A stretch of DNA of 36,899 bases from a virus: IMG/VR virus record IMGVR_UViG_3300018080_000357, positions 1-36,899 of that record; one strand, given 5' to 3'. This document shows, one piece after another, positions 746 through 32,575 of the stretch. The position numbers and the translations under genes are program-made. Positions within the stretch are counted from its first letter, which is position 1. Every line of letters starts with the position of its first letter. The notes beneath the pieces are model-generated. The model worked only from the letters and a program-made list of their open reading frames with translations. It searched no databases and was not told the origin of the DNA.

Positions 746-971
746 TTTCCATCCTCCAAAGTTTTTCCTCATCCTGGTAAATAGGCTTTCTTTTATCCTC
801 AACAATGTAATCACCACGGGGAGTGCTAAAGATTGTGCCTTTAGGCTTACCCATTTTAGTACCCTCCGTGGCCTTACTGCGATCTGACAAGAAAAGCTTA
901 TTAAAAGAATAGCACAGCAAGGCAATGCCTAACATTTGAAGTATTTCAATGGTCAAAATTACATATTCCAT
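720..971 (-). CDS. Small N-terminally anchored membrane protein, unknown function
   Basis: 83 aa. Residues 2-24 form a hydrophobic segment; the rest is polar and charged, with a basic stretch (KMGKPKG) and an acidic tail ending NESGENPN. It overlaps the acetyltransferase gene upstream and the other small membrane-protein gene downstream, so the three look co-translated. A weak GAGA lies before the ATG. The pair of small membrane proteins near the end of the late arm is where some phages keep lysis genes, so a holin or antiholin role is possible but unproven. Confidence 0.7.
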   Translation of the reverse strand: MEYVILTIEILQMLGIALLCYSFNKLFLSDRSKATEGTKMGKPKGTIFSTPRGDYIVEDKRKPIYQDEEKLWRMENESGENPN

Positions 972-1477
972 TCTGATCTCATAATACTGATTAAAGTGCA
1001 GTCTAAATATTTGCCGTCTTTATAATAAAAATCACGCCTTATACCATCTATTTTCATTCCTAATTTCTCGAATAAACCAAGTGCAGGATTGCCAACGAAT
1101 GTCTCTCCATAAATTTGTTTTAAATTTAACTCATTAAAACCATGAGTGAATAGAGTCTTTAATACCTTTTCACCAAGGCCTTTTTTATGATGTTGTGGAA
1201 ATATATAAAGAGAAAATTCTGCTCTGCGAATAATATGATCTATAGAGGTGAGCCCACAGACACCCAAAAGAGAGCTATCCAAATTACTAACGCTATACAT
1301 ACTAATAGTAGGATCTGAGTTTTGTTTCTCATACCATGCATCCTGATCTAAGTCAGAGATTAAATCATGCTGCCTACACCAGTCTCTAATTCTACTATCA
1401 TTCCTTGCTTGCCTTAGAACCGGCAAGTCATTTTTTCTAATTCTATCCAGTTTTACTTTATGACCATAGTCTATCAT
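959..1477 (-). CDS. GNAT-family N-acetyltransferase (PseH/RimJ-like)
   Basis: 172 aa, the usual length for Acetyltransf_3-type GNATs. The acetyl-CoA binding region is around residues 80-105 (SLYIFPQHHKKGLGEKVL, matching the R/Q-x-x-G-x-G/A pattern), followed by the conserved GNPALGLFEKLGMKIDG block and a C-terminal RRDFYYKDGKYLD of the RimJ/PseH type. PseH acetylates the 4-amino group made by the aminotransferase in pseudaminic acid synthesis. RimJ/RimL relatives acetylate protein N-termini. The location, one small gene after the sugar aminotransferase, favours the sugar role, which remains an inference. ATGA overlap couples it to the upstream 61-aa gene. Confidence 0.85.
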   Translation of the reverse strand: MIDYGHKVKLDRIRKNDLPVLRQARNDSRIRDWCRQHDLISDLDQDAWYEKQNSDPTISMYSVSNLDSSLLGVCGLTSIDHIIRRAEFSLYIFPQHHKKGLGEKVLKTLFTHGFNELNLKQIYGETFVGNPALGLFEKLGMKIDGIRRDFYYKDGKYLDCTLISIMRSEWNM

Positions 1478-1659
1478 GGCTTTATTATCCTGCTCTTGTT
1501 TTCTATTGTTTGTATTAATTGATCAACCAAACTCTTAACATTTGTATGATAGATGTTAAATCCCTCAATAGTATTTTTCTGGATTTTATCTAGCTCCTCT
1601 AAATACTTTGGTAAGCTCAACTCCTCTGATCGCATTTCTTTAGCTTTACTCTCACTCAT
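1474..1659 (-). CDS. 61-aa hypothetical protein
   Basis: Charged, helical protein without membrane segment or recognised motif. AAGGAG lies 7 nt before the ATG and the stop overlaps the acetyltransferase start (ATGA), so it is likely translated. It lies between the class III aminotransferase and the acetyltransferase, separated from the former by 171 bp without a convincing gene. I cannot assign a function; an accessory protein of the sugar cassette is only a possibility. Confidence 0.6.
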   Translation of the reverse strand: MSESKAKEMRSEELSLPKYLEELDKIQKNTIEGFNIYHTNVKSLVDQLIQTIENKSRIIKP

Positions 1660-1830
1660 TTTAATGTCTCCTTATTTTGAGGCTTTGGTAGTTTGCCAAC
1701 ACTACTACTGCTTTTAATGTGACTACAGTACACCCTTATCCCTTAGGCTCACATGCCAGGGAGTCCTTGATTGCATGACATTCTCACAGAAGGCTATGGT
1801 TAACTCATTCCTTTCCATGGGCTACATGCT

Positions 1831-3015
1831 TCAAAGCCCCCTTGATTTTAAACTAAAAGGTGATTTAGGCATATCTCCTATTAACTTAACTTTTCCTTTT
1901 TTCATGTTTTTTAATATTTCTTTGCAAATTAAAATTGTCTCATCGTTATATTGAACTAGATCAAAGTTATAAAACCATGACTTGCAAAACAGAATATGAG
2001 CACTGCAGGCCTCTTGAAAAAATTTGGCTAAAGTCTCAGGCTCACCAGTAAAAACACCCCTTGTTGGGTAGCCGTCAATTCTTATTTTCTCTGGATATAA
2101 AGCATTAAACCTATCGATAAACTCCTGGCCATTTTTCCATAGCTCACCCATATCATAGTCAAGTTTTTTATGCATAGTCCTAAACATGGCTTTGCATCCT
2201 GAGAGGCTTAAAATCTCCCCTGCGTACGTTGAACTAACAAAGTACTCAGAGTCCATGATTTCCTTTTTGCCGGCAACCAGAGCTAAAGGGAGCCCATTTG
2301 CTAAAGCTTTACCAAGGATGATTAGATCGGGATAGACATTGATATCATTTGCTACACACCATTTTCTATATCTCATCCCTGTTATCGTCTCATCGAATAT
2401 GAGGAGAGTGCCTGTATCGTCGCATTTTTTTCTTAATTCCTTGAGGTATTCAATTCTATCCCTGGAGTTATCCACAATCACTGGCTCAATTATGACTGCT
2501 GCAGTGTTGCTACATATAGCATCTGTTTTCTCAATGTAGGAATGTGGCATACACCCTTTGGCCGGTGGTGTGAGACTTGTAAACTCAGGATGCCAACCAT
2601 GATACCCATCCGATAAAATATATTTCCTACCAGTAAAAGCCCGAGCAATAGTAATAGCTGCAGTGCAAGCCTCTGAGGAGGTTTTAAGAAATTTGATTCT
2701 CTCTATAAAAGGGAAAAACTCTTTAATGATTTCTGCAGTATCTACCTCATGGTAAGTAGGCAAAGAATGTGAAAAACCGCTATAGACATGCTTTAAAATC
2801 TCTTGAGTAATATGGAGATTTCCATACCCTAATAAGTTTGTACCTAATCCGCAAATATAGTCTACAAACTTGGTGTCATTCATATCCCATAAATGACATC
2901 CTTGCCCTCCCTTTATATGGGTAGGGTATACTCCGAAAACATGACTGTGTGGATTTTTTGAATTGGTGAGTGCTCCCTGAGCAATTGCGTTTTCACTACG
3001 ATTAAAAACTGTCAT
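1831..3015 (-). CDS. Class III PLP aminotransferase (GSA-aminotransferase-like), sugar-cassette member
   Basis: 394 aa. Fold-type I class III signatures: GLGTNLLGYGN near the start, KTSSEACTAAITIAR (phosphate-binding region), YHGWHP, EPVIVD, FDETITGMR with the PLP-pyridine Asp (D208), and LGKALANGLPLA with the Schiff-base Lys (K236). Family members transfer or shift amino groups, as in glutamate-1-semialdehyde aminomutase. In surface-glycan clusters, homologues sit beside SpsF-type cytidylyltransferases and NeuB-type synthases, as here. PseC/LegC use a different (DegT) aminotransferase family, so the product may differ from standard pseudaminic or legionaminic acid. Start: GAGG lies 6 nt before base 3015; an ATG at 3027 overlaps the upstream stop but has no such signal. 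Confidence 0.9.
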   Translation of the reverse strand: MTVFNRSENAIAQGALTNSKNPHSHVFGVYPTHIKGGQGCHLWDMNDTKFVDYICGLGTNLLGYGNLHITQEILKHVYSGFSHSLPTYHEVDTAEIIKEFFPFIERIKFLKTSSEACTAAITIARAFTGRKYILSDGYHGWHPEFTSLTPPAKGCMPHSYIEKTDAICSNTAAVIIEPVIVDNSRDRIEYLKELRKKCDDTGTLLIFDETITGMRYRKWCVANDINVYPDLIILGKALANGLPLALVAGKKEIMDSEYFVSSTYAGEILSLSGCKAMFRTMHKKLDYDMGELWKNGQEFIDRFNALYPEKIRIDGYPTRGVFTGEPETLAKFFQEACSAHILFCKSWFYNFDLVQYNDETILICKEILKNMKKGKVKLIGDMPKSPFSLKSRGL

Positions 3016-3026
3016 AAATTTCCTCA

Positions 3027-3740
3027 TTAATATTTATAAATACCGTCCTTTGTACGTTTTAATAGCGCTAGTTTTTTCTGCTTTTCCTCATGAATTTTGC
3101 GTACAAACTCTAAATCCTCCGCCGTGTCAACACTATATTTTAATCCGCTCTCATCTACGTTGTGCATAACGTGAGCTATCCTTGCCCAACTAGGTGCCGA
3201 GTGCCTGATAAAACTAGTGACGTGCTCCCTATCATCTGGAGTGATTGCGTTTTGCAATACGTAGTCAAATAAGTCTTTAGACATGACCTCTACATCATAT
3301 CCGTCTGGACTAGTTCTAAAACGCGGATCTACATTTGACACGTAGTCTAATCTATGCTTAACGGCAAGCATGATATGCTTTGTGATTAATTCACTTGGTA
3401 ATAATGGACAGTCTGAGGTAACTCTAACTATATACTTTGGCATTAACTCCAATGCTCTGTCATACCTGGTTAAAACATCATTCTCTGGACCATAAAAAGT
3501 AGGCACACTAGTCATGCCTGAAAACTCTTTACACTCACTCTCTGGAGCTAAAAGACACATATCTACATTAATAGAGTGCCTCCAAGTCTGTTTATTAATG
3601 TGTATCCTGGATGATTTACATGCGTCTATAACATGGTCTAACATTCTTTTGGTACCAATGTACTCTAATATTTTTCCAGGCAATCTGCTGTTATTTAACC
3701 TTGCTTGTATGGCTATTACTACTTGTATTGTTGAATCCAT
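3027..3740 (-). CDS. SpsF/NeuA-type cytidylyltransferase (CMP-sugar synthetase)
   Basis: 237 aa. The N-terminal nucleotide-binding signature is clear: IQARLNNSRLPGKIL (residues 11-25). IVRVTSDCPLL (about 104-114) carries the metal-binding Asp, PDGYDVEVM fits the sugar-binding part, and YSVDTAEDLEFV near the C-terminus is the usual D-x-x-x-D-L ending. Enzymes of this family activate a 2-keto-3-deoxy acid sugar as its CMP ester, the donor needed by a nonulosonate transferase. It overlaps the oxidoreductase gene by 22 nt and abuts the aminotransferase gene. AAGGTG precedes the ATG. The exact sugar cannot be read from the sequence. Confidence 0.9.
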   Translation of the reverse strand: MDSTIQVVIAIQARLNNSRLPGKILEYIGTKRMLDHVIDACKSSRIHINKQTWRHSINVDMCLLAPESECKEFSGMTSVPTFYGPENDVLTRYDRALELMPKYIVRVTSDCPLLPSELITKHIMLAVKHRLDYVSNVDPRFRTSPDGYDVEVMSKDLFDYVLQNAITPDDREHVTSFIRHSAPSWARIAHVMHNVDESGLKYSVDTAEDLEFVRKIHEEKQKKLALLKRTKDGIYKY

Positions 3741-4348
3741 TTGATCACCTTTTCATGTGACTCTAAAATATAGTCATGATTATTAGTTGGGTTTTTAACC
3801 CAGTCATCAATCATATCAATATAGGCATGGTCCATACCACGGATGTTAAGAGACTTTCCGTTAATCCAACAATCCCAGATAGGACTATCGTTTTTTAGTT
3901 CTACATCACCTTTAGCCATGCCTATGATATTGATACAATCCCATGCTAAACCATCACGTCCCGTTTTAAAATAATTATAATAAGTCTTACCCTCAGCACC
4001 TGCCTCATCGGCTCTTGGCATATACTTATATTGGTTGACCATGCGTATATTCAAATTAGTCTTAGAAAGAAAATCAGCTAAACCAAGTGTTGAAGGTTTT
4101 CCAAAAATGCCGCATCGGCTAATAGGTTTTTCACAAAGGATTGGCAAATCATAATCATTTTCAAACGACCGCAAAATATCTGGATGGGTAATAGTTGGTG
4201 TGGCTAATATAATACCCTCTATGTCCTGCTCATTGCCTTTTCTCTCAAAAGGCTCTAACCCAGACCATTCAATACCCAAAAAATCTAAAATAGCAGTATA
4301 CCTGCTACCCATATTCCCTTTATATCCAACAACTAATACTTTTTTCAT
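3719..4348 (-). CDS. Short Gfo/Idh/MocA-family NAD(P)-dependent oxidoreductase
   Basis: 209 aa, versus about 330 in the family. The Rossmann N-terminus has VVGYKGNMGSRY, then IILATPTITHPDIL and LCEKPIS (about residues 72-77), the family's EKP motif with its catalytic Lys. The usual C-terminal beta-sheet domain is much reduced (about residues 95-209). The reaction would be oxidation or reduction of a sugar or sugar nucleotide. Relatives occur in legionaminic-acid loci of Campylobacter (PtmA/PtmF region), a context analogy rather than proof of orthology. ATGA overlap couples it to the dehydratase gene. The shortening may mean a narrowed or structural role. Confidence 0.85.
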   Translation of the reverse strand: MKKVLVVGYKGNMGSRYTAILDFLGIEWSGLEPFERKGNEQDIEGIILATPTITHPDILRSFENDYDLPILCEKPISRCGIFGKPSTLGLADFLSKTNLNIRMVNQYKYMPRADEAGAEGKTYYNYFKTGRDGLAWDCINIIGMAKGDVELKNDSPIWDCWINGKSLNIRGMDHAYIDMIDDWVKNPTNNHDYILESHEKVIKWIQQYK

Positions 4349-5187
4349 ATGTATGGCCTCACCAGCTCAGTTAGTTCTTTAATAGAATAAATTGGACAGT
4401 TGTCACTCCTAAGACAGAAATTATGAGTAGATCTAAGACACTCATGTATTTTCTCACCTGGTCTAATGCCTATAGTGTCTGTCTCATAGTCCTCAATACC
4501 TAATATGTCAGCTATTGTTAAAGCTACATCTGAGACAAGTGAGGCTTTCATATTTGGTATCATAGCGTCTACCTTACTTGCCTGTTTGTAATTATGGACT
4601 ATGTATTTAGCCGCATCATTTGATGTTATCCAAAATCTAGTCATTGCTGGGTGTGTGATTTTAACTAGTTTATCTTTAAGAAGTGACTCTTTAAATATAG
4701 GCACCACAGAGCCTCGTGATCCAATCACATTACCCCACCGAAACACAGAAAACCTTGTTGGTGTCTCTCCAGTATTTGCCTCAAAGAAAACCTTCTCAGC
4801 CAAAGCCTTTGAAAAGCCATAGGTGTTGATAGGCAATACTGCCTTATCGGTAGACGATAAAACTGCATACTTAACTCCCATCGTATGACAGAAGTTTCTT
4901 ACATTCTCAGTGCCTAAAACATTAGTCTTAATGCACTCAGTTACATTGTCCTCACAGACATCAATGTGCTTTAAGGCAGCAAAGTGAAATACTATGTGAA
5001 ACTTTTTAGCAGGGAATGTACTAACATCCCTCACATCTCCAATCACATAGCCAAATTGAGGATACTCCTGCATCATCTTTTTTTGCTTAAACTCATCCCT
5101 TGACAATACTGTTACATTGCAATGAGACAATAGAGGAGCAACGGCATGGCCTAAAGTGCCAGTACCACCAATCATTAATACATCCAT
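4345..5187 (-). CDS. PseB/LegB/FlaA1-type UDP-GlcNAc 4,6-dehydratase (extended SDR)
   Basis: 280 aa, slightly short against about 330. Motifs in order: GGTGTLG (7-13, NAD binding), GDVRD (50-54), FHFAALKH (68-75), SSTDKAV (111-117, with the Asp-Lys pair typical of 4,6-dehydratases), YGFSK (123-127, catalytic Tyr and Lys), RWGNVIGSRGSVVP (150-163), THPAMTRFW (178-186) and RPGEKIHE (242-249). These are diagnostic for the PseB/FlaA1/CapD branch, which makes UDP-4-keto-6-deoxy-HexNAc, the first step toward pseudaminic and legionaminic acids. First of five closely packed sugar genes. AGGGA precedes the ATG. Confidence 0.92.
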   Translation of the reverse strand: MDVLMIGGTGTLGHAVAPLLSHCNVTVLSRDEFKQKKMMQEYPQFGYVIGDVRDVSTFPAKKFHIVFHFAALKHIDVCEDNVTECIKTNVLGTENVRNFCHTMGVKYAVLSSTDKAVLPINTYGFSKALAEKVFFEANTGETPTRFSVFRWGNVIGSRGSVVPIFKESLLKDKLVKITHPAMTRFWITSNDAAKYIVHNYKQASKVDAMIPNMKASLVSDVALTIADILGIEDYETDTIGIRPGEKIHECLRSTHNFCLRSDNCPIYSIKELTELVRPYI

Positions 5188-5439: not shown

Positions 5440-6555
5440 TTAGAATACAGTAGACTCGGGAGCATAATTGTGGAGCTCCTCTAATAATCCCTCAAATTCA
5501 AATGTGTGGATATTCAAAGTCTCAGTTACTCTCAAAAAGATATTGGTAGTAGCATCATCAGCATCAAATATCACTGATAGAGTCACTGGGTCCTTACCAG
5601 TGCTACCTCCTCCCGTTCTAACATTACCTGTTTTTGCCGTTGACCCATTATAAATTGTCACTGTTGCTGACCAATCTGAGCCTGTTTGTGCCTGGACTAC
5701 AATTGTACCAGTGTATTTATATCTTTGACCCGATATTAAGCCCGTGAAAACAGCAACATCATCGTAGCCTGACACATCCTCGTCAGAGTTGCCGCTAATT
5801 GTTTGCCATCTATTTTTTATTGAATTATCAATCATATGCCAATTAGTACCATTAGATTGAACGGTAATAGAGTCATATTGAGATGAGAGCAACATTGTTG
5901 CAGCACCATCAATAGTCTCAGCTCCCTCACCATCCACAGTAAGAGTAAAGGCACCACTATCAGTCTTTTTAATAGTTATAATTCTATCGGTGTTGTCGGC
6001 TGCAGTAGGGAGGGTCACTGTCCTGGCTGCGGTCATAGTTGTATCAGTGACAATAGTCCTATAGCCATCATTATCTAGTATTGTATATGCAGCATCACCA
6101 GTGGCCTTTATATCTGTCTGACCTGGGACCCAAATTAAAGCACCACTACCAGAATTTTGTGCTACCTGGCCTTTAACTCCTGCATCCACAGGCAAAGTAA
6201 TAGTATAGGTTGCTGTAGCAGACGCACTAGCAATGAGTCTAACAGTCTCACTATTACCACCTAAATAGATGCCTGCTAAACCTAATGTAGCTGAGCCTAT
6301 GTCGTAAGACTCTGTGGTCTTAATAAGAATAGAACTGGCTAAAGATGCATTAATAGTTAAGTCATCTGTAGAGCCATTACCAAGGTTAATATCCCCATTT
6401 AAGGAGACTGTACCTGCACAAGTCAAAGCACTAATAGACAAGTCTACTGTGCCGTCTGACATTGCATTTAGTAAATCGGAAAAATTAGTATTAATTTCTC
6501 CGGCATCTGCAGTAGTTGAATTAGTAAATGTATAGGTAACTGAGGGACCTGCCAT
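5440..6555 (-). CDS. Tail-fibre-like virion protein, receptor-binding candidate
   Basis: 371 aa, very rich in Thr, Ser, Gly, Asp and Ala, predicted nearly all beta. The N-terminus (AGPSVTYTFTNSTTADAGEINTNFSDL) and repeats such as YDIGSATLGLAGIYLG are typical of trimeric fibre shafts in environmental phages. The middle TITIKKTDSGAFTLTVDG block is a common beta-repeat, and the C-terminal 120 residues look like a compact beta-sandwich. No enzymatic residues are evident. AGGGAG precedes the start. It is the last clear virion gene before the sugar cassette, so a fibre or surface substrate for glycosylation is plausible. Confidence 0.8.
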   Translation of the reverse strand: MAGPSVTYTFTNSTTADAGEINTNFSDLLNAMSDGTVDLSISALTCAGTVSLNGDINLGNGSTDDLTINASLASSILIKTTESYDIGSATLGLAGIYLGGNSETVRLIASASATATYTITLPVDAGVKGQVAQNSGSGALIWVPGQTDIKATGDAAYTILDNDGYRTIVTDTTMTAARTVTLPTAADNTDRIITIKKTDSGAFTLTVDGEGAETIDGAATMLLSSQYDSITVQSNGTNWHMIDNSIKNRWQTISGNSDEDVSGYDDVAVFTGLISGQRYKYTGTIVVQAQTGSDWSATVTIYNGSTAKTGNVRTGGGSTGKDPVTLSVIFDADDATTNIFLRVTETLNIHTFEFEGLLEELHNYAPESTVF

Positions 6556-10722: not shown

Positions 10723-11562
10723 CTATATCCCAAATGTTTTTCTGATTGGAGTAATAGTTGTCATCCCGGCTAGTGGGTTAAGAGCTGTCATCATCCCCTC
10801 ACCGGTACTAAAGTCAGTGCTAAGGCCTATATTACCAAAACCCAACTGATCAAATAAACCAGGTGACCCTTGTCCTGCTGCTTGTATGCCCATTCTTATA
10901 TTGTGGTCTGTTACTCTTACTTGCTCGGCAAACTCTTGATCAAACATTGCCTGCTCGAAAGACCTTTGCAGACCTGATTCCTTAGCAGCAAAGTCTAGCT
11001 GTTTTTGTTGTAAATTACCGGCATCTCTAGCCGCTGCTGCTGCTAAAACTCTTTGTTGTTTTAATGCTGCTGCTGATTGGCCTGCTTGAAACTCTTCGGC
11101 ACCTAATCTCTCACCAGTTAAAAAGCCTCTTTGCAGTTCTGCTTGCCCTGCACCAAACTCCTGAGCTCCTAATCTCTCTCCTCTTTGAAACTCTCTACCT
11201 AAACCTGCCTGTGTTTCAGCAAATTTTCTAGCTAGAGCACTCTGGCCTGCACCAAACTCTTGAGAGCCAAGTCTCTCACTGGTAGCAAACTCTCTAGCCC
11301 TACTCTCAGCATCAAGTCTCTCCTGCTCACCTAATTTAGCAAACTCAATACCCTCACGGGCTGTCTGCAATCTCCTAGCTCCTGCCTCACCTGCTTGCTG
11401 CTCTGCTTTAATAGCCTCACCTGAGGCTTGTGCTCCTAGTGCAGCAAAACGTCTTTTTAAAGCATCTTTTTGCTCTTGAGTCTGAGCCTTTGCTTGTTGC
11501 TCGGCTCTCCTTTGCAGGATATTGAATTTATCTGCAGTTGCTCCCGATATTCTTAAACCCAT
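10723..11562 (-). CDS. Internal virion protein with 11-residue (hendecad) repeats
   Basis: 279 aa. Residues 90-166 consist of seven consecutive 11-residue units of the form x-E-F-x-x-G-x-x-L-x-x (for example REFQRGERLGA then QEFGAGQAELQ). Looser copies extend over about 72-210. Hendecads form slightly right-handed coiled coils, suiting a long rod or helical bundle. The N-terminus has Gln/Ala-rich helices; the C-terminal 55 residues are Gly/Thr-rich and not coiled. It overlaps the hub gene by one base. Likely a core or ejection protein, inferred from the neighbourhood. Confidence 0.7.
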   Translation of the reverse strand: MGLRISGATADKFNILQRRAEQQAKAQTQEQKDALKRRFAALGAQASGEAIKAEQQAGEAGARRLQTAREGIEFAKLGEQERLDAESRAREFATSERLGSQEFGAGQSALARKFAETQAGLGREFQRGERLGAQEFGAGQAELQRGFLTGERLGAEEFQAGQSAAALKQQRVLAAAAARDAGNLQQKQLDFAAKESGLQRSFEQAMFDQEFAEQVRVTDHNIRMGIQAAGQGSPGLFDQLGFGNIGLSTDFSTGEGMMTALNPLAGMTTITPIRKTFGI

Positions 11563-13460
11563 TATCTCTGCCCTTTCAAATTATAAGTTAAGTTAAGAGC
11601 CAATATTTTGAATTTTTGATCTACTTTATTTTGATTGCCGAACCTGAATTGCAAACGCTTGCCTGTTAATTGACCTAGAAATACTTTGGTATCAATCTCA
11701 TCGGCACCACCACCCCACACATCTCTACCCCACATCATGGTACCCCATAGAGAACCGCCTGGGTTTAAATCAATCTGCCTAACATTACCCTCACCACTAT
11801 CTGAGTCTAATCTTAGATTCATATCCATGTAGTATGCTGCAGGTTGCTCATAGAGAATATTGGCAAATCTCCAATCTTTGGTGATGATCTCATGGCCTTT
11901 ATTACCTGAAAATTCTTTAGTCCAGTAATAGGAGTCTATAGCTGCCCCGTTATCATTGTATGTATCTGTGTTTGCCTCGAATATATAACCATCATCATTG
12001 CTAGAGGCATAGTAGACCTTATCATCGTATATTTGCAGTTGGGCTGCATTTAACCCAGTCCAAGGCACCCATGTGAATTTTTGGGCTTTGGCAATGTTTT
12101 CAATAGAAAAGTCAAATAAATAAATTCTATTGTTTATGGTATTGCCTGTGTCGTATGTCAGAGTGATATATGCTTTTCTCTTAAATACCAAAGATGAGAT
12201 ATTACCTACATAAGCCTCCTGCACTTTAAACATGTCAGGCTCTATCTTATCACTCTTAAACTCACTACCTGCTGCCTGGATGGTTAAAAGTGTTGCTGTA
12301 GCCTCTGTGGTTTGCCCTGCTATAGCTGCAAATCCCACAAAATTCTCATCGCTTGTGGCTGGAAACATCACCCTATTTTGGTATCTAAACATCCCAAATG
12401 GAGACCTTGTGCCCAGAGATGTCTTTACTCTTATATCCTGCCATGTAGATGCATCTGTAGATGGCATGTAAATGATCCAAATGGATTTTCTGCAGCCTAC
12501 AACTATGGAGTTATCGAATATCTCTAGCCCTACTGGAATATCCCCAGTTTTATCCCCAATGCGCCTAAAGCTTGTGGATTTAAAAACGTATGGATTGCCA
12601 ATTTCGGAATATTTAACAAAATTGGTAGCTGGGTCTATGACAAAGAGCCTCGATTGATGAAACACGATTGCTGAATAATTTGGTGGCTCACCCTGATCTG
12701 TGGGAGCTGCAGCACCTAATGAGGCATCTGCAATAGCATCATCATAGGTAGTAGTGGTGTTGTCCTCTATTGTGGTCACTAGTTTATAAACAGTACCACT
12801 GTTTTCTGTCCTATAGAGTCTCCTAGAATTAACACCAAATGAAATAGGAGCTATTGGAATGGATGTTACCCTTATATCCTCTGTGGCTGCTGTAAATGTA
12901 TTACTTACAGGATTGACATCACCCTCTACTAGGTTTGAATTGACGTAGGTAACTTTATAAGAATAAACACCGGTGAGATTGTTACCGCTGGGTGCTGTAC
13001 CTGCTGTCATTGTAGTAGTAGGTGCTGGGATACCATGCCTAGTAAAATGAGAATTGTATTTATATGGGGTGCCGTCTCCATTGCAGTAAAATCGATAGTC
13101 CTCATATTCAGCAGAGGCCACCCTTAATCCTGCTGTATAGACCGATACTGCAGAGGGAATAGATAGCAATGATGTGCCTGAGAGTACATGCATTGTACCG
13201 TCTGCCCAGGCTGTCATAGACTCGGCACCATCGGATGTGTGTCTTATATAAAAGCCATCAAATGCAAATGAGCCTATTGTAGCAGTGTTTAGAATATCAG
13301 TACCGCCACGGGTCTCTACACTACCATTGCCAAAAATAACATTCTGACAATCAGGAGACTCATTTTCTAATAGTAGAGCTCTATCGAATTTATTATTTAG
13401 CCCACCATCAAAGCCTATCCTGCCTGATTGTGGATAAACTACATTGAAAACGCTTGTCAT
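11562..13460 (-). CDS. Tail hub/nozzle-type protein (P22 gp10 or T7 gp12-like role)
   Basis: 632 aa, beta-rich, with many Asn/Asp/Thr-Gly turns and repeated hydrophobic-aromatic strands (RLFVIDPATNFVKYSEIG, KVYYASSNDDGYIFEA), as in propeller-type tail hub proteins. An early block (FDGGLNNKFDRALLLENESPDCQNVIF) reads like the start of many podoviral stabilisation or tail-tube-B proteins. Near the C-terminus a Trp-rich LWGTMMWGRDVWGGG segment recurs in the 126-aa gene upstream. The ATG at 13460 has a GGGG stretch upstream; a GTG three codons earlier is possible. It overlaps the adaptor gene by 4 nt, the usual adaptor-hub order. Confidence 0.75.
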   Translation of the reverse strand: MTSVFNVVYPQSGRIGFDGGLNNKFDRALLLENESPDCQNVIFGNGSVETRGGTDILNTATIGSFAFDGFYIRHTSDGAESMTAWADGTMHVLSGTSLLSIPSAVSVYTAGLRVASAEYEDYRFYCNGDGTPYKYNSHFTRHGIPAPTTTMTAGTAPSGNNLTGVYSYKVTYVNSNLVEGDVNPVSNTFTAATEDIRVTSIPIAPISFGVNSRRLYRTENSGTVYKLVTTIEDNTTTTYDDAIADASLGAAAPTDQGEPPNYSAIVFHQSRLFVIDPATNFVKYSEIGNPYVFKSTSFRRIGDKTGDIPVGLEIFDNSIVVGCRKSIWIIYMPSTDASTWQDIRVKTSLGTRSPFGMFRYQNRVMFPATSDENFVGFAAIAGQTTEATATLLTIQAAGSEFKSDKIEPDMFKVQEAYVGNISSLVFKRKAYITLTYDTGNTINNRIYLFDFSIENIAKAQKFTWVPWTGLNAAQLQIYDDKVYYASSNDDGYIFEANTDTYNDNGAAIDSYYWTKEFSGNKGHEIITKDWRFANILYEQPAAYYMDMNLRLDSDSGEGNVRQIDLNPGGSLWGTMMWGRDVWGGGADEIDTKVFLGQLTGKRLQFRFGNQNKVDQKFKILALNLTYNLKGQR

Positions 13461-14095
13461 ACATAGCACCCCACAGCAGGTGGATAGTCAGCATCATATT
13501 CTCTGACATGAGCCTGCCTATCGGTTCGTTTTCTATGAGCAGTCTCTTTTAAAGCTTTCTCTACAGTGAGAGCCCACCGATTAAGGTGAAAAGTGCTCAT
13601 TTGCCTATCCTTATCTTTGGCAAAAAATGCTGCCAGGATAAAATCAACAATAGCTAGATGATATTGCTCAGGTACATTTAATACTGAGGTAGCTGTTACC
13701 TTAGAGGCTCTTTGATGAGTAAACATCTTAATCGTTTTACTGGCTGTGTCTGGAGTAGGGAATAAAATCACTACATCATTCCAAATAGCATAGCTATCAG
13801 GAGTACCCGTGGTCTCTGTGGTAGATGTTTTAGGGTCATTTCTGAGCTCCACCTTAACAAGAGGATCACCATCATATTCTATTCTTTTAATTGAGATTGT
13901 ATTGTCTGGGTAAGTATACTCACGTTGATCTGCCACACTATCGGTAGTGAAAGTCTCCTCAATTAAATCTACCTCAACACCTAGCTCTAATTGAGCCTGA
14001 TAGATGAGATTGAAAATCATAGCCTGAGGAAAAAAGTCATCTCCCACAGCATTATATAATTGCCTTGCATGTGTTTCTATTTCAGTTGGTGTCAT
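13457..14095 (-). CDS. Head-tail/tail adaptor protein
   Basis: 212 aa. The pattern (helical MTPTEIETHARQLYNAVGD, a central beta part with REYTYPDNTISIKRIEYDGDPL, then helices YHLAIVDFILAAFFAKDKDR) matches the adaptor family of podoviruses comparable to P22 gp4 or T7 gp11, which docks below the portal. In P22 and T7 this protein joins the portal to the hub, and here it lies directly upstream of the hub gene with a 4-nt overlap. Assigned by pattern and order rather than by a unique motif. Confidence 0.75.
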   Translation of the reverse strand: MTPTEIETHARQLYNAVGDDFFPQAMIFNLIYQAQLELGVEVDLIEETFTTDSVADQREYTYPDNTISIKRIEYDGDPLVKVELRNDPKTSTTETTGTPDSYAIWNDVVILFPTPDTASKTIKMFTHQRASKVTATSVLNVPEQYHLAIVDFILAAFFAKDKDRQMSTFHLNRWALTVEKALKETAHRKRTDRQAHVREYDADYPPAVGCYV

Positions 14096-15927: not shown

Positions 15928-16956
15928 CTAAAAAAGTATTTTTAGTTGATCTGACTCAGGATTTTTACATTGCTCTTCTAAGTGAAAACTATTGTCAAAC
16001 ATCTTAAAAGTATCCTCTAAATCCTGCTGAATAATATGCTGTATATTGCCTTGTGGATAAGCACCCAGTATACCACCCTCCGTAGAGTTTATGTAGACTC
16101 CTGGGCACCTTGTAACAATTAAGTCTGTCCATATCTTAAAGTTTTGATAAGACGGCCATGTCACTGCCCTATTGCCGAAAATATCGACACCGACAACACA
16201 TTGACCTAAATCCTTATCGTACTTGCTATCCCATGAGTGAAAACGTCTTTTCTCTACATTTGAGAAAGCAAAGTCTGCTCCTACCCATATGATTGGACCG
16301 CAACCTAATTGACCCTTAGCAATATGCAAAGCAGCACCTAAAACATGCCCACCACTGGATACATGAGTGCTGAATTTTTCTATTTCGAGGACCTTATTTC
16401 TAATTTCCTCGTCTGGTATGGGAGAGTTAAAAAAGTAAATCTCACCTTTCCATTTTTGAAGTAACTCTGGGTCACTCCCAATGTAACAGATGAGTTTTTT
16501 ATCTTTAGTCCTATCCCAATACCATGAATCATCTTTGGTGCATCCCTCTGTTACCTCCTCAATAGTCACCGGTCCGGCATCTAATGATACATAGTAGTCT
16601 ACACCACAATCCATATCCTCCATGAGATGGAAATTGTGCAGACACGATATCAAGAGCATACCCCCAGGTCTGTCCTTGAGGAGGTGTACATTTTTCTTAA
16701 GGCTAGGTCCTGCACCGGCAAGGATACAAGGCATATGTAGGTGTTTATTCCATAGTCTGCCTAAACCCTTGCTAGCGAAAGACCCATAGGCTTTTTTATT
16801 CTGAGCAATGTTTCTTAACCAAATATCCCGCCACATTTTAATGGTGGGCTCATCTGCACCCGTGGCTCTACCCCACATCTCATCCTGAGTCATGGGAGGT
16901 CCCGGAATGTACATTGAGTACTCTAGTAATATTTCTGCTGTCCTAACTTTGCTCAT
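15928..16956 (-). CDS. Maf/DUF115-family protein, putative nonulosonic-acid glycosyltransferase
   Basis: 342 aa. The central MAF_flag10/DUF115 (MptE-like) domain is recognisable: CILAGAGPSLKKN (78-89, nucleotide-binding G-x-G-P-S-L), YYVSLDAG (121-128), IIWVGADFAFS (222-232, the I-x-x-G-x-D-x-A/S motif) and YINSTEGGILG (288-298, the N-x-T-E-G-G motif). Family members include flagellin Maf transferases that move pseudaminic or legionaminic acid from CMP to Ser/Thr, and archaeal MptE pterin enzymes. With a CMP-sugar pathway in the same genome, the transferase reading is preferred. It lies between the decoration/capsid genes and small virion genes, so virion proteins are likely acceptors. Confidence 0.85.
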   Translation of the reverse strand: MSKVRTAEILLEYSMYIPGPPMTQDEMWGRATGADEPTIKMWRDIWLRNIAQNKKAYGSFASKGLGRLWNKHLHMPCILAGAGPSLKKNVHLLKDRPGGMLLISCLHNFHLMEDMDCGVDYYVSLDAGPVTIEEVTEGCTKDDSWYWDRTKDKKLICYIGSDPELLQKWKGEIYFFNSPIPDEEIRNKVLEIEKFSTHVSSGGHVLGAALHIAKGQLGCGPIIWVGADFAFSNVEKRRFHSWDSKYDKDLGQCVVGVDIFGNRAVTWPSYQNFKIWTDLIVTRCPGVYINSTEGGILGAYPQGNIQHIIQQDLEDTFKMFDNSFHLEEQCKNPESDQLKILF

Positions 16957-16980: not shown

Positions 16981-17463
16981 TTAATAACAAGAGATGTATG
17001 CCTCTCCAGATGCGCTTGAAACAATAGCTGTCAATGCTTTGCCTACTGCTGGCACTAAGTTACCAGTTGTATTTGAAACTGGCACAAAAAGGCCGTCTGC
17101 AGCAATTTCAACTGGACCATGAGCAGCAACCGTACCTGACGTTGCACCCATTTCGATGTTAGTTACACCACGTCTTACTAGCCAGCCATATGTGCCAGTT
17201 GTAAGGGTAGCATTACGTACAACACCAACACAGATATCTGCAGATGTTACCGATGTACTCGAAAGTGAGTAGTTGGTAGCGTCAGATGTCATTACCATCC
17301 CCATTCCTGGAGAAACATCATTGTTACCTGCATTGTATGCATAGACATACTCTCGACCACCTTTTTGCATGGTCTGCCCTAGTTGAGGTGACTTGCCGTC
17401 TAGTGTAGCAGTAACAAAACTCTCGTCTCTAAAGACAATAGGTTCCGAACCGTAGTTAGTCAT
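16981..17463 (-). CDS. Capsid decoration/cement protein candidate
   Basis: 160 aa, beta-rich and rich in Ser, Thr, Val, Ala and Gly. It begins MTNYGSEPIVFRDESF and contains VYAYNAGNNDVSPGMGMVM, GVVRNATLTTGTYGWLVRRGV and VAAHGPVEIAADGLFVP, the alternating strand/turn pattern of small cement proteins. It follows the major capsid gene by 15 bp, the typical place for such a protein. A strong leader precedes it. The many exposed-looking Ser/Thr make it a candidate acceptor for the transferase encoded next. Confidence 0.7.
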   Translation of the reverse strand: MTNYGSEPIVFRDESFVTATLDGKSPQLGQTMQKGGREYVYAYNAGNNDVSPGMGMVMTSDATNYSLSSTSVTSADICVGVVRNATLTTGTYGWLVRRGVTNIEMGATSGTVAAHGPVEIAADGLFVPVSNTTGNLVPAVGKALTAIVSSASGEAYISCY

Positions 17464-17478
17464 TTTTTTATCTCCCTA

Positions 17479-18402
17479 TTAAGATGTTAATCCAGTGAAT
17501 GACCCGTGCAGTCTGTTATTAGTTGAACCGAAGGCTCCCATAAAAAGCACACGTGAAATTTTCACTTGCTGGTTGGTCGGTTTCATCCAATCCTCCATTA
17601 CGATATTTCTCTTTGGGTGATACCAAAGAATCGCAGATGGCTCATGCACTAAGAAAAGGTGATTTGCTGGGCAATGACTATCTGCCAAAACTGGGATGCC
17701 ATTAAAAAGCAAACTGTTAAATCCACCCTTAGCAGATTCACTGTTTTGGAACCTTTGCTGTGGTTGGAGCAATGAGTAGTAAGAATTAAACAGTGTACGT
17801 GTTGTTAGACATACAGTTGGGCTGTCATTGTCTACTGTACAATCTGTGTAAATCTTATTAAGAGCACTCATTGTGAGAGTGGTCGTTGTTGTATCTTGCT
17901 GTGCTTGCCACCATGAGTAAGTACTCTGGCTAATGCCACCAACTGTTTGATCAACATCAACGATGTCTCTCAAACCTACGATTGATTTGGCATCTGTGCC
18001 GTCTGAATACAAACCAGTACCTAAAAGATCTTTAAGAGTCTTTTCAGCTACCATGACTTTAGACTTGAGGAGATTCAAAACACCGGACGAGCCAGAGTTT
18101 TTCAGTTCTTCTTCTTCACTAATCGTCACGTTTGCATAAAGGTTTTTCCAGTCATATGATGCACCGGTCAAAACTTCATTGTCTGTAGTATTCAAAGTCT
18201 CTGTACCGGAAAACCACCCTGAGCTAGAAACGCTTGCATAGTTTAGAGGTACATCGATTGTCAAACCACCGTCTCTTGACTGGTAGCTAGACGATCTAAT
18301 CATTCTTTGAGTGTATGGATTGCTATCGAAAATGTTATCGTGCAATTTTGGTTGTATCCACTTGTGTGTGATACTGGATAGTTCATTGATACTTAAGGCC
18401 AT
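17479..18402 (-). CDS. Major capsid protein (HK97-fold type)
   Basis: 307 aa. The overall pattern fits a podoviral HK97-fold capsid protein without a long N-terminal delta domain: N-arm (MALSINELSSITHKWIQPKL), an E-loop region with GGLTIDVPLNYASV, helical backbone (LLKSKVMVAEKTLKDLLGTGLYSDG), and a beta C-terminal part with FNGIPVLADSHCPANHLFLV and an ending VSRVLFMGAFGSTNNRLHGSFTGL. It lies directly after the scaffold gene. AAGGAGGT precedes the ATG by 6 nt, the strongest ribosome-binding site seen, as expected for the most abundant product. Confidence 0.9.
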   Translation of the reverse strand: MALSINELSSITHKWIQPKLHDNIFDSNPYTQRMIRSSSYQSRDGGLTIDVPLNYASVSSSGWFSGTETLNTTDNEVLTGASYDWKNLYANVTISEEEELKNSGSSGVLNLLKSKVMVAEKTLKDLLGTGLYSDGTDAKSIVGLRDIVDVDQTVGGISQSTYSWWQAQQDTTTTTLTMSALNKIYTDCTVDNDSPTVCLTTRTLFNSYYSLLQPQQRFQNSESAKGGFNSLLFNGIPVLADSHCPANHLFLVHEPSAILWYHPKRNIVMEDWMKPTNQQVKISRVLFMGAFGSTNNRLHGSFTGLTS

Positions 18403-19301: not shown

Positions 19302-19559
19302 TTACTGTACTGGCATGCCACCTCTTGGTGCATTTTGTGGTACTGGTTGCCCTTGTGGTGCCTGCTGTCCTTGCTGGCCACCACCCCCTGAAATTGTTTG
19401 AACGATACCTGCATATCCTTGTAGGACAGCCTGCATTTGTTGCTTAACCTCATCGGGAGCTCCAGAGCCCATGATAGCTTTAGTAACAGCCTCTAGTCCT
19501 GCTCCCACGTTTTGAATCAGTTCGCCTATAGATGGTTGCCCACCTTGTCCATTAGGCAT
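19302..19559 (-). CDS. 85-aa small protein between portal and scaffold
   Basis: N-terminal half is a short helix pair (IGELIQNVGAGLEAVTKAIM), C-terminal half is Gly/Gln/Pro-rich and disordered (GGGGQQGQQAPQGQPVP). It overlaps the portal gene by 8 nt and precedes the scaffold by 14 bp. Small Gly/Pro-rich genes are frequent here in podoviruses with P22-type portals. Function unknown. Confidence 0.65.
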   Translation of the reverse strand: MPNGQGGQPSIGELIQNVGAGLEAVTKAIMGSGAPDEVKQQMQAVLQGYAGIVQTISGGGGQQGQQAPQGQPVPQNAPRGGMPVQ

Positions 19560-21429
19560 TAGTACCTCCTTGTTGTTGCTCTTGTTGGGCAGCTATTGCC
19601 TGCTGCTCTTTGATTCGTTCTAATAGCTTTTCTTTATTTGGGTGTTGCAAGTCATCTAATACCTGCTCGGCATCAATCAGACCTCTGTCAAATAAAGCTA
19701 AAGATCGTCTCTCTTTGTCTGCAATAGTAAATGGCAGACTAGAGCCAGTATTGACCCTACAATCAAAATCACCCTTGATGATATACTCTTTAGTATCCTC
19801 CTCACGGAGAACAGGCTTTGAGTTTTTAACATCATCGTCTAGGTCTGCAGTCTCACCAATCGATGTGAACCTTGAAACTCTGGCTTTTTTAAATTCATTA
19901 CCATCATCATCTTTAACAGGCTCTATGGACATCTTAAAGTATTGCTGGGCACCATCCTCACCTGTGTAAGTAAAAACCTTAGGCACAGCATAGAATTGCA
20001 TGACTCTATTTCTGTATTGCCTGCCAGCATCCCTCAGATATTCATCCATATTCCGCATTTTTTGCTTAATTCTAGTCCTAGAGTTATCGGTTAATTGCTC
20101 TATGGCACTAGCTGCAGTGACACTACCAGGTACATTACCCTGCTGTACCTCTGATAGCCCTGCTACATCATTAAACCATCCTTGCAGTTGATTTAGCACT
20201 TGCATAAATGCAGGATTTAGATTAGAGCCGTCAATCCTCCGAACGTCTGCTCCTGGATTAGGCTCTAAAATACCACCTGGCCTATTTGTCAGATTGCCAG
20301 TATCAATACCTGCATTTTTCGAAACTATCCATTGTGGATTGCCTGTGAGGGTCAATATATCGAGTGTAAAGCTTAATATTTTGTTGAATACCCTTTGAGG
20401 AGACTCCAACTGCTCTACTTCTGAGACCCCATAAAACTCTCTAGGCAGTATGTAATTGTTGTATTTAGAAAACGGGAATAAACCATCCTCATATGGCAAT
20501 GGACCATCCTCTAGCACCACACCACAAGCAACCACAATTTTCCTACCGTTAGGGTATTTCTTTCTTAATACATATATCTCTTTAGGCTCACCACCCTCCT
20601 CATCTCTTGTCTCTTTAGATTCCTCTAAGTCATGAGGTTTTAAATATGCCTCGATAACAAAGGATTTTTGTGATGATGCCAAATCCTCAGACTTGCCAGC
20701 CTCTTGCTCGGCAGGCATATTTCTATCTGTTTTGGTAGGCCTTATATAATGCTGATTTATGTTTGTTTTCTCTTGTCTTTCAAAGTCTACAACATCGGAT
20801 TTTATAAATTTGGCTTTGTCTGGATATTTTCGCTTTAACAGCATTGTATTGCAGGGATAGGCTTTGATAAATGCTTTAGAGTCAGGGTGATTTATGTCAC
20901 GGGCATCAATATCAGGGTAGCAATGGAATGGGTCCTCACTCTCATAGACTGCACCACCGATACCATAGTTTTTCTCAGGGTCATAATGCATGGAGCTAAA
21001 CCCAGTACCATAGATATAGCCATCCAAAATCACTGCAGAGAGCTCTCTTAACCAATCCTCTCTCTCCCAATCACTGATAGCAACCTGATCTAAGATGTCT
21101 GCAAACTCTCTATCCCCAGGCTCTTGAGGGATAAACTCAAAACGTGGTCTAACATCCGTTTGCATAGGGAATGAGGCTTGTATTGCCTGCCATACCATAT
21201 TGACTATCTCGGAGTGCATGTGTTTAGGTCGCATTTTATGCCACTGATCACCCCTAAAGAATTTATAAAAGTCTAAAAAACGTTTTTTATATGGCTGATT
21301 GTGGTTTTTGAATCTACCAAAGAGCTCTTTAACCTGTTTGACAAGTAACTGCTCTTTTTGTGGTATATCTGCAGAGGTAACAGCTTTGCTATTTGGTACT
21401 TGGTGTTCTCCCAAAGGCATATCACTCAT
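19552..21429 (-). CDS. Portal protein (P22-like)
   Basis: 625 aa, within the range of large podoviral portals. Typical features: N-terminal helical RFKNHNQPYKKRFLDFYKFFRGDQW, DGYIYGTGFSSMHYDPE (early domain), SEDPFHCYPDID, then the wing/stem region with FSKYNNYILPREFYGVSEVEQLESPQRVFNKILSFTLD, GNPQWIVSKNAG, and VPGSVTAASAIEQLTDNSRTRIKQKMRNMDE (tunnel-loop/stem helices). C-terminus is a Gln-rich tail (AIAAQQEQQQGG) as in barrel-type ends. ATGA overlap with the zinc-ribbon gene upstream. Confidence 0.92.
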   Translation of the reverse strand: MSDMPLGEHQVPNSKAVTSADIPQKEQLLVKQVKELFGRFKNHNQPYKKRFLDFYKFFRGDQWHKMRPKHMHSEIVNMVWQAIQASFPMQTDVRPRFEFIPQEPGDREFADILDQVAISDWEREDWLRELSAVILDGYIYGTGFSSMHYDPEKNYGIGGAVYESEDPFHCYPDIDARDINHPDSKAFIKAYPCNTMLLKRKYPDKAKFIKSDVVDFERQEKTNINQHYIRPTKTDRNMPAEQEAGKSEDLASSQKSFVIEAYLKPHDLEESKETRDEEGGEPKEIYVLRKKYPNGRKIVVACGVVLEDGPLPYEDGLFPFSKYNNYILPREFYGVSEVEQLESPQRVFNKILSFTLDILTLTGNPQWIVSKNAGIDTGNLTNRPGGILEPNPGADVRRIDGSNLNPAFMQVLNQLQGWFNDVAGLSEVQQGNVPGSVTAASAIEQLTDNSRTRIKQKMRNMDEYLRDAGRQYRNRVMQFYAVPKVFTYTGEDGAQQYFKMSIEPVKDDDGNEFKKARVSRFTSIGETADLDDDVKNSKPVLREEDTKEYIIKGDFDCRVNTGSSLPFTIADKERRSLALFDRGLIDAEQVLDDLQHPNKEKLLERIKEQQAIAAQQEQQQGGTNA

Positions 21430-21791
21430 ATTTCAATCCTTTTCTCATTGTGCCACCATTTTTCTAGCCCGTCATATCTGCTAGCCAGTTTTTTCTCTCT
21501 CTCTTTATTCATAGTATCGGTAATTTTGCCCATGTCCTCATTGCCTACCTCTACTAGACCCATGCTCTTTGCTATCTCTGCTCTATGTTTTTTGTTTTTA
21601 GTAACACACCCAAGGCCTGGGTTAAACTCGGCATCCTCTACCTTCTCTCCAGTAAATCCTACACCACCAACGACTAGCCTAGTCATGATTGTATCACAGT
21701 AAGAGCATGCCTCTTTGTTATCAATCTCTTTAACTGATTTTATAATGTCCGTCTCTTTATTACAACCAGGACACTTGTAAGGGTATCTCAA
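21426..21791 (-). CDS. Zinc-ribbon protein (FmdB-like) between TerL and portal
   Basis: 121 aa. The first 35 residues form a treble-clef or ribbon: YKCPGCNKETDI with C7 and C10, then ACSYCDTIMTR with C29 and C32, as in the FmdB/CxxC-CxxC putative regulatory family. A later Gly-rich VVGGVGFTGEKV and a charged C-terminus (IAKSMGLVEVGNEDMG, then KEREKKLASRYDGLEKWW) follow. The gene overlaps both TerL and portal by 4 nt (ATGA each side), so stoichiometry is coupled to packaging proteins. A DNA-packaging or assembly role is inferred. Confidence 0.8.
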   Translation of the reverse strand: MRYPYKCPGCNKETDIIKSVKEIDNKEACSYCDTIMTRLVVGGVGFTGEKVEDAEFNPGLGCVTKNKKHRAEIAKSMGLVEVGNEDMGKITDTMNKEREKKLASRYDGLEKWWHNEKRIEI

Positions 21792-23086
21792 TAGAAAACC
21801 TCTAAATTTGTATTCTTAGGTCTCATTAACTCTTTAATTTTCTCTAATTCACTCTTTGATTGGTCATTATTACTAGAATTTTTATTATTTGCAAATGCCA
21901 ATGCACCCATGGTGGCATACCTGTTTGCATCTAAGATGTCATCATCCTGCTTTACTGGATTAGGGTCTTTCTCATCCTTATTAACCCCTGACTCGGAATA
22001 CTCAGGGTAGTGATACTTCTCCATTTCATCCACAGTATGCTTATGGTGCCCATGAAATATTTGATACCTACCTGTCTTTATGAGCTCATAGTGCTTATCT
22101 ATCCCTGTCCTAATGGCATTGTCTGCAGCAATAGATGTGATGCCATGAGTATTAAAAGTATCTATGTATTCTGGCCTTGCTGGATCACAAAAAAAACATT
22201 GTATAGGGAATTGGGTCATGGCTGATTTAGCAACGTCTACCATCCTATCGATAGTCATGCCTGCTTTTTTAAACTCCATGACTTGATAGTGTCTGCCATC
22301 TTTGGTATATGCCCGAACCGTTAAGGCAAATGGATGCACATATCCCCAGTCTACCCCTGCCACAAACTTGGTGCCCGGTGGTAATTCGAATGGATGCACA
22401 ATACCGGCATCATCATCCCAGCAGTTATAAACTAAACCCTCTGCTCGGTCAAAACGCCCACCATATTGCATATTGAATCTACGGGCATCCATAGTCTTAC
22501 GTTTTCTCTCGTACTCTCTATCGGGAAAATATGGATTTTCTTTGGAGGTTGCCTGGATAAGGTCTACTTCGGCAAGGATATTGGGGTCTTTTTTGTTGTA
22601 GGGGAGTATGTAGTCTTTGTGCAACCAGTTAAGAGAATACGGGCTAGTAACAATTCTAATCGGGCTTTCTGAAAAGCTTGCTCGGCCTTGAATCGTCTCC
22701 CAGAACAGAAGTGAATACAATCCGGCCTCATCGCAAACGATTGCCCGTACTCTTGTGATGCCCACCACCGAGTTAGGATGAACGCCAGTCCGAAACCATA
22801 CAGTGCCACCATTGTGTATTTTAAAACAGTTCTCTTTTTTATCATGGGTACCTAATCCCTCAAACCAGTTATTGAAAGCAGGCATAGTTGATTGAGCCAT
22901 GATTGGATATGTGGGAGCAGTTACTAGAAAGTTATCCCTTGGGTCAGTATACCTGGTGATCATACGTCTTAGCCACACCACTGCTGACTCGGTTTTACCC
23001 CACTGTATGCCTGTAGCAGCAATGGTAATTGGCTTTTCTCCAAATACCACTTTATTTTGCTTTAGACTATGGGGTTTGAAGGTCAT
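21788..23086 (-). CDS. terL: Terminase large subunit (packaging ATPase and nuclease)
   Basis: 432 aa. ATPase: Walker A-like ATGIQWGKTESAV (24-36; W at 29 replaces the usual Ser/Gly neighbour of GKT), Walker B IVCDEA (115-120, D118-E119) and the coupling TSPY (146-149). Nuclease (RNase H-like) acidic residues: D245 in VAGVDWGYVHP, D300 in FFCDPARPEY and the DDDILDANRYA cluster at 381-391. Together these are diagnostic of TerL. It lacks a recognisable long N-terminal extension. It overlaps a 49-aa membrane-protein gene upstream (ATGA), which explains the poor free-standing ribosome-binding site. Confidence 0.95.
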   Translation of the reverse strand: MTFKPHSLKQNKVVFGEKPITIAATGIQWGKTESAVVWLRRMITRYTDPRDNFLVTAPTYPIMAQSTMPAFNNWFEGLGTHDKKENCFKIHNGGTVWFRTGVHPNSVVGITRVRAIVCDEAGLYSLLFWETIQGRASFSESPIRIVTSPYSLNWLHKDYILPYNKKDPNILAEVDLIQATSKENPYFPDREYERKRKTMDARRFNMQYGGRFDRAEGLVYNCWDDDAGIVHPFELPPGTKFVAGVDWGYVHPFALTVRAYTKDGRHYQVMEFKKAGMTIDRMVDVAKSAMTQFPIQCFFCDPARPEYIDTFNTHGITSIAADNAIRTGIDKHYELIKTGRYQIFHGHHKHTVDEMEKYHYPEYSESGVNKDEKDPNPVKQDDDILDANRYATMGALAFANNKNSSNNDQSKSELEKIKELMRPKNTNLEVFY

Positions 23087-27179: not shown

Positions 27180-27231
27180 GCCCTCCGGGGCTTTAGAGGA
27201 TGTTGTTATTGATAAGTGGTTTATCAATAAC
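27178..27231 (+). promoter_or_regulatory. Hairpin plus 11-bp perfect inverted repeat
   Basis: Two structures lie between the first two early genes. AAGCCC-TCCG-GGGCTT (27178-27193) is a 6-bp hairpin with a UNCG-type tetraloop starting at the stop codon. GTTATTGATAA-GTGGT-TTATCAATAAC (27205-27231) is an 11-bp perfect inverted repeat. Neither has a following T-run, so operator, RNA-processing or mRNA-stability roles are as likely as termination. Confidence 0.5.
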
Positions 27232-27264
27232 TCAAAAACACTTGACAAACCGAGGAGTAAAAAA

Positions 27265-32560: not shown

Positions 32561-32575
32561 GCATTTGGAGATTTT

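Follow-up and report, generated by a model that had tools for sequence, protein, structure and literature searches.

A phage lineage with a nearly complete nonulosonic acid route and a Maf-like glycosyltransferase, probably serving glycosylation of its own virion

In Campylobacter, Aeromonas and Clostridium, Maf-dependent O-glycosylation of flagellin with pseudaminic or legionaminic acid relies on PseB-, PseH-, PseI- and CMP-synthetase-like enzymes together with a Maf-domain transferase. Mafs act in the cytoplasm (PMC11339370, PMC4065374) and O-glycosylate serine or threonine with nonulosonic acids, using CMP sugars as donors (PMC11339370); their bacterial substrate is flagellin (PMC4065374). 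In the mycobacteriophages Che8, Corndog and Myrna, capsid or tail is glycosylated by phage glycosyltransferases (PMC12363180). Maf/nonulosonate glycosylation of flagellin and glycosylation of phage capsids are thus each known, and the phage system described here joins both. It lies in IMG/VR virus record IMGVR_UViG_3300018080_000357, whose 36,899 bases were analysed whole and are called the window below. Like the flagellin systems, it has the four kinds of enzyme and a Maf gene beside the gene for an abundant self-assembling structural protein; unlike them, it is phage-borne, has capsid genes as neighbors, retains only the core domain of Maf, uses a class III instead of a DegT aminotransferase, includes an extra compact Gfo/Idh oxidoreductase and has no PseG. 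The proposed outcome, a capsid or tail modified by a phage-encoded transferase, is that of the mycobacteriophages; whereas for those a glycosyltransferase is reported, here the transferase belongs to another family and comes with a near-complete route to a dedicated sugar. Literature searches, with subscription papers and preprints outside their scope, found no report of this phage nonulosonate/Maf combination. The seven genes listed next likely form one system, owned by the phage, for producing a CMP-activated nonulosonic acid (a nine-carbon sugar akin to sialic acid, here probably pseudaminic-acid-like) and O-linking it to a protein of the virion.

4345..5187, minus strand: DEHYD, PseB/FlaA1-type UDP-HexNAc 4,6-dehydratase, short form, 280 amino acids (aa) (PF02719, 3e-70; TIGR03589 PseB, 6e-65)
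3719..4348, minus strand: GFO, compact Gfo/Idh/MocA oxidoreductase, 209 aa (by profile match to Gfo/Idh structures and AlphaFold2, AF2, model)
3027..3740, minus strand: CTP, SpsF/NeuA-type cytidylyltransferase, 237 aa (PF02348, CTP_transf_3, 1.9e-12)
1831..3027, minus strand: AT3, class III HemL-like aminotransferase, 398 aa (PF00202, 1e-28; HemL subfamily, 7e-49)
959..1477, minus strand: GNAT N-acetyltransferase, PseH-like (PF13302, 6e-14; TIGR03585 PseH, 1.4e-16, below cut-off)
23783..24715, minus strand: NeuB/PseI-type nonulosonic acid synthase, upstream of the large terminase subunit gene (PF03102, 4e-44; PseI model, 2e-39)
15928..16956, minus strand: MAF, core-only Maf-like (MptE/DUF115) glycosyltransferase, 342 aa (PF01973, 4.5e-22)

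The initial annotation had read the five enzyme genes at 959-5187 and linked them with the NeuB and Maf-like genes. The open reading frames (ORFs) were found exactly there, all on the minus strand and overlapping or nearly touching (DEHYD-GFO -4, GFO-CTP -22, CTP-AT3 -1 and, between a 61-aa ORF and GNAT, -4 bp), as in translationally coupled operons. Pfam and NCBIfam profile searches placed the five enzymes, NeuB and the Maf-like protein in family-typical groups, and the aminotransferase is class III and HemL-like rather than PseC-type.

These assignments extend to folds and catalytic residues. The best PDB match of DEHYD is H. pylori FlaA1 (2gn4, 1.4e-51), and its D-K-Y and YxxxK catalytic positions are conserved in 24-25 of 25 phages; its match to the PseB model is strong, yet under the equivalog cut-off. 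GFO alone matches Pfam GFO_IDH_MocA weakly (0.0026); its family profile reaches Gfo/Idh structures at 1e-10, its EKP motif is invariant (25/25), and its compact AF2 model (predicted local distance difference test, pLDDT, 91) is nearest in fold to WlbA/WbpB (2e-7). That UDP-GlcNAcA 3-dehydrogenase supplies an aminotransferase with a keto sugar, but is about 100 residues longer than the phage protein. CTP, an SpsF-like member of the PF02348 superfamily that KdsB models match as well, resembles the PDB cytidylyltransferase 6oew (1e-17) and keeps its motif residues in 27 of 27 sequences. The AT3 family profile matches GSAM structures (1.6e-58), with the pyridoxal phosphate (PLP) lysine and an aspartate conserved in all 26 alignable sequences. 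For GNAT the best NCBIfam match is TIGR03585, at 61 bits against a cut-off of 93, and spermidine acetyltransferases score almost equally. The NeuB family profile finds pseudaminic acid synthase (8h2c, 1e-58), SpsE (1vli, 2e-49) and NeuB (1e-36), all eight of its structure matches being NeuB/PseI/SpsE enzymes; the catalytic Lys, Lys, His, Glu and His are invariant in 27 of 27 sequences, the position equivalent to Glu134 varies, and sequences with a truncated C-terminal domain lack the Arg of that domain. The catalytic positions are named after those of FlaA1 and Neisseria NeuB, following alignments to structures. The key residues of DEHYD, GFO (EKP), CTP, AT3 (PLP), NeuB and Maf are conserved almost throughout. 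SpsE-type NeuB and SpsF-type cytidylyltransferase genes also occur together in the spore-coat polysaccharide (sps) genes of B. subtilis, which differ in being cellular, in serving the spore surface and in using other transferases.

We infer the chemistry, with its CMP-sugar donor and virion acceptor, as follows. The PseB-like DEHYD would convert UDP-HexNAc to the 4-keto-6-deoxy sugar nucleotide, to which AT3 would add an amine; the PseH-like GNAT would then acylate the aminated sugar, and UDP would be removed by a hydrolase of the host or one not recognised here. NeuB would join the hexose to phosphoenolpyruvate, CTP would form the CMP-sugar, and the compact Maf would transfer the sugar in the cytoplasm onto serine or threonine residues of a structural protein, while particles assemble or before they do. 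GFO might contribute one oxidation or reduction, perhaps providing a second keto substrate for the aminotransferase; to our knowledge, a Gfo/Idh protein has no canonical role in the textbook pseudaminic or legionaminic acid routes.

PF01973 is the central domain of Maf, although the family is named after MptE. Of 68 records searched, 45 carry it with a score over the cut-off, and each of these 45 belongs to the window's type of lineage. The best PDB match of the phage family profile is a Maf, 5mu5, and a Foldseek search with the AF2 model (pLDDT 91) again gave the M. magneticum Maf 5mu5 first (4e-9), followed by archaeal MptE (8sd5, M. jannaschii HPPK, 1e-4) and the sialyltransferase ST8SiaIII (1e-3). 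The central PF01973 domain of Maf is itself described as resembling the sialyltransferase Cst-II (PMC11339370). Entries A0A0F7L3H2, A0A6J5PG89 and others in BFVD have a Maf-like fold and are named 'MptE-like'. The pterin-enzyme name is probably misleading for such viral proteins.

The window has the gene content of a tailed phage: its minus strand encodes terminase, portal, major capsid protein (MCP), head and internal virion proteins, and its plus strand a DnaB-like helicase, RecT, an exonuclease and HNH. The features that frame the sugar genes are these.

21788..23086, minus strand: terminase large subunit, TerL (phrog_2, 1e-37)
19552..21429, minus strand: portal protein (phrog_156, 2e-62)
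17479..18402, minus strand: MCP, candidate acceptor (phrog_9953, 4e-56)
16981..17463, minus strand: small cement/decoration-like protein, so called from its position between MCP and MAF, candidate acceptor
11562..13469, minus strand: tail/internal virion protein (phrog_511, 3e-16)
5440..6555, minus strand: fibre-like protein, so called from position and composition, upstream of the cassette, Ser/Thr-rich (24%), candidate acceptor
1474..1659, minus strand: 61-aa ORF between AT3 and GNAT, no family

Maf starts 24 bp after the cement-like gene, which itself lies 15 bp past MCP, and 9 bp follow Maf. This arrangement recurs. Scans of IMG/VR with single proteins returned 12 relatives of Maf, 16 of Gfo and no more than two distant matches of MCP; profile scans gave relatives of which we took the best 80 of 140 for portal and the best 80 of 133 for Maf, and in the full records all window families were traced with iterated profiles. 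The recurring order is small terminase subunit (TerS)-NeuB-TerL-portal-scaffold-MCP-cement-like-Maf-tail genes-fibre-like-dehydratase-Gfo-CTP-AT3-GNAT. Counting the window, 25 records reach 33 kb or more; 21 of them have all seven sugar genes, and two of the four exceptions (G034, G041) end within the cassette. Among 14 records picked by portal or Maf only, AT3 occurs in 14, NeuB and CTP in 13 each, GNAT in 12, and DEHYD and GFO in 11 each; most records found via Gfo alone also hold NeuB and PF01973. Maf comes immediately after the MCP/cement-like pair at 108 of 109 loci (81 of 82 once duplicates are removed), and the fibre-like gene keeps its position before DEHYD. Where the order differs, genes are relocated, not lost: in G004 and G042 DEHYD is next to NeuB, in G026 Gfo lies antisense beside TerL, in G045 the entire cassette is inverted, and in G046 five genes cluster near TerL. 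In a sub-clade (L065:779-1459; L125, L136, L146, L207, L210), the Gfo/Idh gene has moved out of the cassette to a site flanked by TerL and the following late gene, where it lies antisense.

Since dozens of phage records, divergent as they are, share this gene set and its order, the arrangement is not due to chance. The pathway is a near-universal trait of this uncultured tailed-phage lineage and no stray acquisition. A phage-owned route had at first been called merely unusual: phage-owned it is, and 'unusual' understates a trait that nearly the whole lineage shares. No close relatives of Maf or Gfo, and three weak ones of NeuB, were found among 50,697 annotated phage records.

The age and maintenance of the genes point the same way. 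Across 27 genomes, the median pairwise protein identity of the seven genes is 33-51%, compared with 41-53% for the portal, TerL, MCP and tail proteins, which marks the cassette as old in the lineage. The distance matrices of all seven correlate with that of portal (r 0.36-0.64). Ratios of non-synonymous to synonymous substitution (dN/dS) show purifying selection on the genes: 0.04 for Maf and 0.07 for NeuB between G007 and G008, and 0.10, 0.14 and 0.33 for DEHYD, AT3 and NeuB between G016 and G017. In a partial Mantel test on 22 genomes, with structural proteins controlled for, Maf distances covaried with those of NeuB (partial r 0.50), AT3 (0.50), GNAT (0.48) and CTP (0.47; each p 0.0005), less with DEHYD (0.25) and GFO (0.09), and hardly at all with Maf's own neighbors MCP (0.01), cement (0.05) and p89 (0.04). 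With the fibre-like protein also controlled for, Maf-NeuB (0.33) and Maf-AT3 (0.31) remain (p 0.001). This kind of test can err on the liberal side, and its informative part is the contrast between close neighbors and distant sugar genes. Maf thus co-evolves specifically with NeuB, AT3, CTP and GNAT and not with its capsid neighbors. With sugar genes of its own and a flagellin-type Maf locked among capsid genes, the phage therefore probably has virions coated with sugar, as some bacterial flagella are.

The sugar might instead be destined for the host surface, where a nonulosonic acid on capsule, lipopolysaccharide or flagellin would mask receptors or exclude superinfection. Bacteria commonly carry such acids on their surfaces, flagellin is the substrate of bacterial Maf (PMC4065374), and phage-encoded genes altering capsular nonulosonic acids are already known (PMC6586298). 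We nevertheless regard this as unlikely: among the genes no flippase, polymerase, ligase or membrane glycosyltransferase could be recognised, the Maf gene is part of the late structural operon, a Maf profile search of 84,980 genomes gave zero matches and so no integrated relative or host link, and near-universal retention across great divergence suggests a need of the virion.

Several findings weigh against a CMP-nonulosonic acid system acting on the virion. None of the enzymes reaches its NCBIfam equivalog cut-off. Neither PseG (TIGR03590) nor Epimerase_2 (PF02350, UDP-GlcNAc 2-epimerase/hydrolase of NeuC/LegG type) was found in any of 26 phage records, nor was a DegT/DnrJ/EryC1 aminotransferase (PF01041, PseC type), which occurs in 14 of 14 control genomes; the PseG, Epimerase_2 and DegT profiles do detect members in control or thaumarchaeal genomes. 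As encoded, the pathway would be complete only with a contribution from the host or from an unrecognised enzyme. The phage Maf has 342 residues to the 632 of 5mu5, without the N-terminal Rossmann-like and C-terminal helical domains, and superposes on it only in part (TMq 0.51, 14% identity); its second fold match, MptE, is a pterin enzyme. Covariation, moreover, picks out no single acceptor, since for MCP, cement and most other structural proteins it does not exceed what phylogeny would give. As to the missing steps, the class III AT3 presumably replaces PseC, and the hydrolase presumably comes from the host or is an unrecognised protein. The original statement that nearly every step is represented stands in so far as the route is nearly complete; 'complete' would be wrong, because the window and the 25 other phage records lack PseG, Epimerase_2 and DegT.

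This misfit with the textbook route, in which the oxidoreductase-aminotransferase pair shares, could also mean that the enzymes supply Maf with another activated sugar acid, such as an octulosonic or amino-octulosonic acid. The match of CTP to KdsB models would agree with this, as would the acceptance of CMP-KDO (KDO, 3-deoxy-D-manno-octulosonic acid) by the C. botulinum Maf (PMC11339370). That pseudaminic acid synthase heads the NeuB profile matches, with only enzymes of its kind behind it, and that DEHYD and GNAT resemble PseB and PseH make such a sugar distinctly doubtful. Still less probable, and in our view very much so, is a reading of the MptE-like protein as a pterin or other phosphotransferase, with the sugar cassette an unrelated auxiliary set. 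It would draw on the name of PF01973, on the MptE name that similar viral proteins bear and on 8sd5 as second fold match; 5mu5 is a far better match, Maf covaries with precisely the sugar genes, and no pterin genes were recognised among the proteins searched.

If a nonulosonic acid is placed on the virion, as we favor, MCP offers a candidate O-glycosylation site. Its residues 170-177 (window 17872-17895) form a threonine run, D-TTTTT-LT, and Maf-carrying phages retain this Ser/Thr run, whereas five relatives without Maf lack it, a pattern that shared ancestry could also explain. The fibre-like protein covaries with the sugar enzymes. Covariation does not, however, mark it out as the acceptor: its partial r with Maf, 0.44, falls to 0.03 once the sugar enzymes are controlled for. 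Before the fibre-like gene lies a 926-aa protein (6559-9339, minus strand), a probable internal virion protein, in which an ADP-ribosyltransferase-like stretch can be seen by eye (FLFHQT...FSKFSDEGYSPKAFFSDEP); Pfam gave no match.

An IMG/VR scan with AT3 led to a second phage group (G048, G053 and others), with weak portal and MCP matches, in which the capsid/adaptor genes are followed by NeuB-DEHYD-AT3-GNAT-(acyltransferase-like)-(BFO_1060/TIGR04396-type glycosyltransferase)-CTP (L410:13914-20000 with L411:1-1009; L415:198-8002). PF01973 is absent from this group, and we found no paper on the BFO_1060-type protein as a known nonulosonate transferase. The group supports a general link of the sugar route with virion genes. 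A more specific picture, which we hold tentatively, as possible rather than likely, is that the window's lineage coats its particle, perhaps at the MCP Ser/Thr run or on the cement-like protein, with a nonulosonic acid made by a new hydrolase-less AT3/compact-Gfo route, and that the second group reaches the same end with an unrelated transferase.

A third AT3 group (G062, G063; L412, L413, L416, L417) has many glycosyltransferases, a Nol-like carbamoyltransferase and the near-row order PseB-CTP-Gfo-AT3-NeuB-formyltransferase-like-PIG-L deacetylase-GNAT. Its members are probably cellular polysaccharide islands, and we did not use them as phage evidence; their gene sets are of use for resolving the pathway. 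Their resemblance to bacterial islands despite a place in a viral collection raises the question of whether the window's cassette, too, is bacterial sequence misbinned as viral. We give this next to no credence: dozens of independent contigs of the window lineage have the sugar genes interspersed with those for terminase, portal, capsid and tail. Cellular relatives of AT3, among the matches listed in the genome scan, have only 24-34% identity, and among these NeuB- and CTP-like genes lie within 10 kb of AT3 only in two thaumarchaeal clusters (Ca. Nitrosotalea devanaterra L221; L220). Both, judged by their genes, are nonulosonic-acid-like islands whose aminotransferase is of the same type as in the phages, and they are among the best AT3 relatives listed; unlike the phage cassette they are cellular, and their identity is only 32-34%.

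About one sixth of a 37-kb genome is spent on one sugar and kept at 33-51% identity, which implies a central role of the sugar in the particle or in entry into the host. If the proposal is true, sialic-acid-like O-glycosylation of proteins would extend from flagella to virus capsids. Compact Maf enzymes could be of use in glyco-engineering, and the variant nonulosonic acid route is testable. There is also a warning, that viral proteins annotated 'MptE-like, pterin diphosphokinase' may be glycosyltransferases.

The 61-aa ORF, seen in the window only, is probably not part of the pathway; it had no match in Pfam, NCBIfam or PHROGs and no relative in 28 records. A recent acquisition of the cassette marked by odd GC content was considered and set aside, the difference being small (37-39% against about 40-43% across most of the structural region). 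Finally, three small proteins (27136-27798 and 32501-33139, plus strand; 23598-23795, minus strand) look lipoprotein-like by eye, with a signal peptide followed by Cys, and possibly have superinfection-exclusion or lysis functions.

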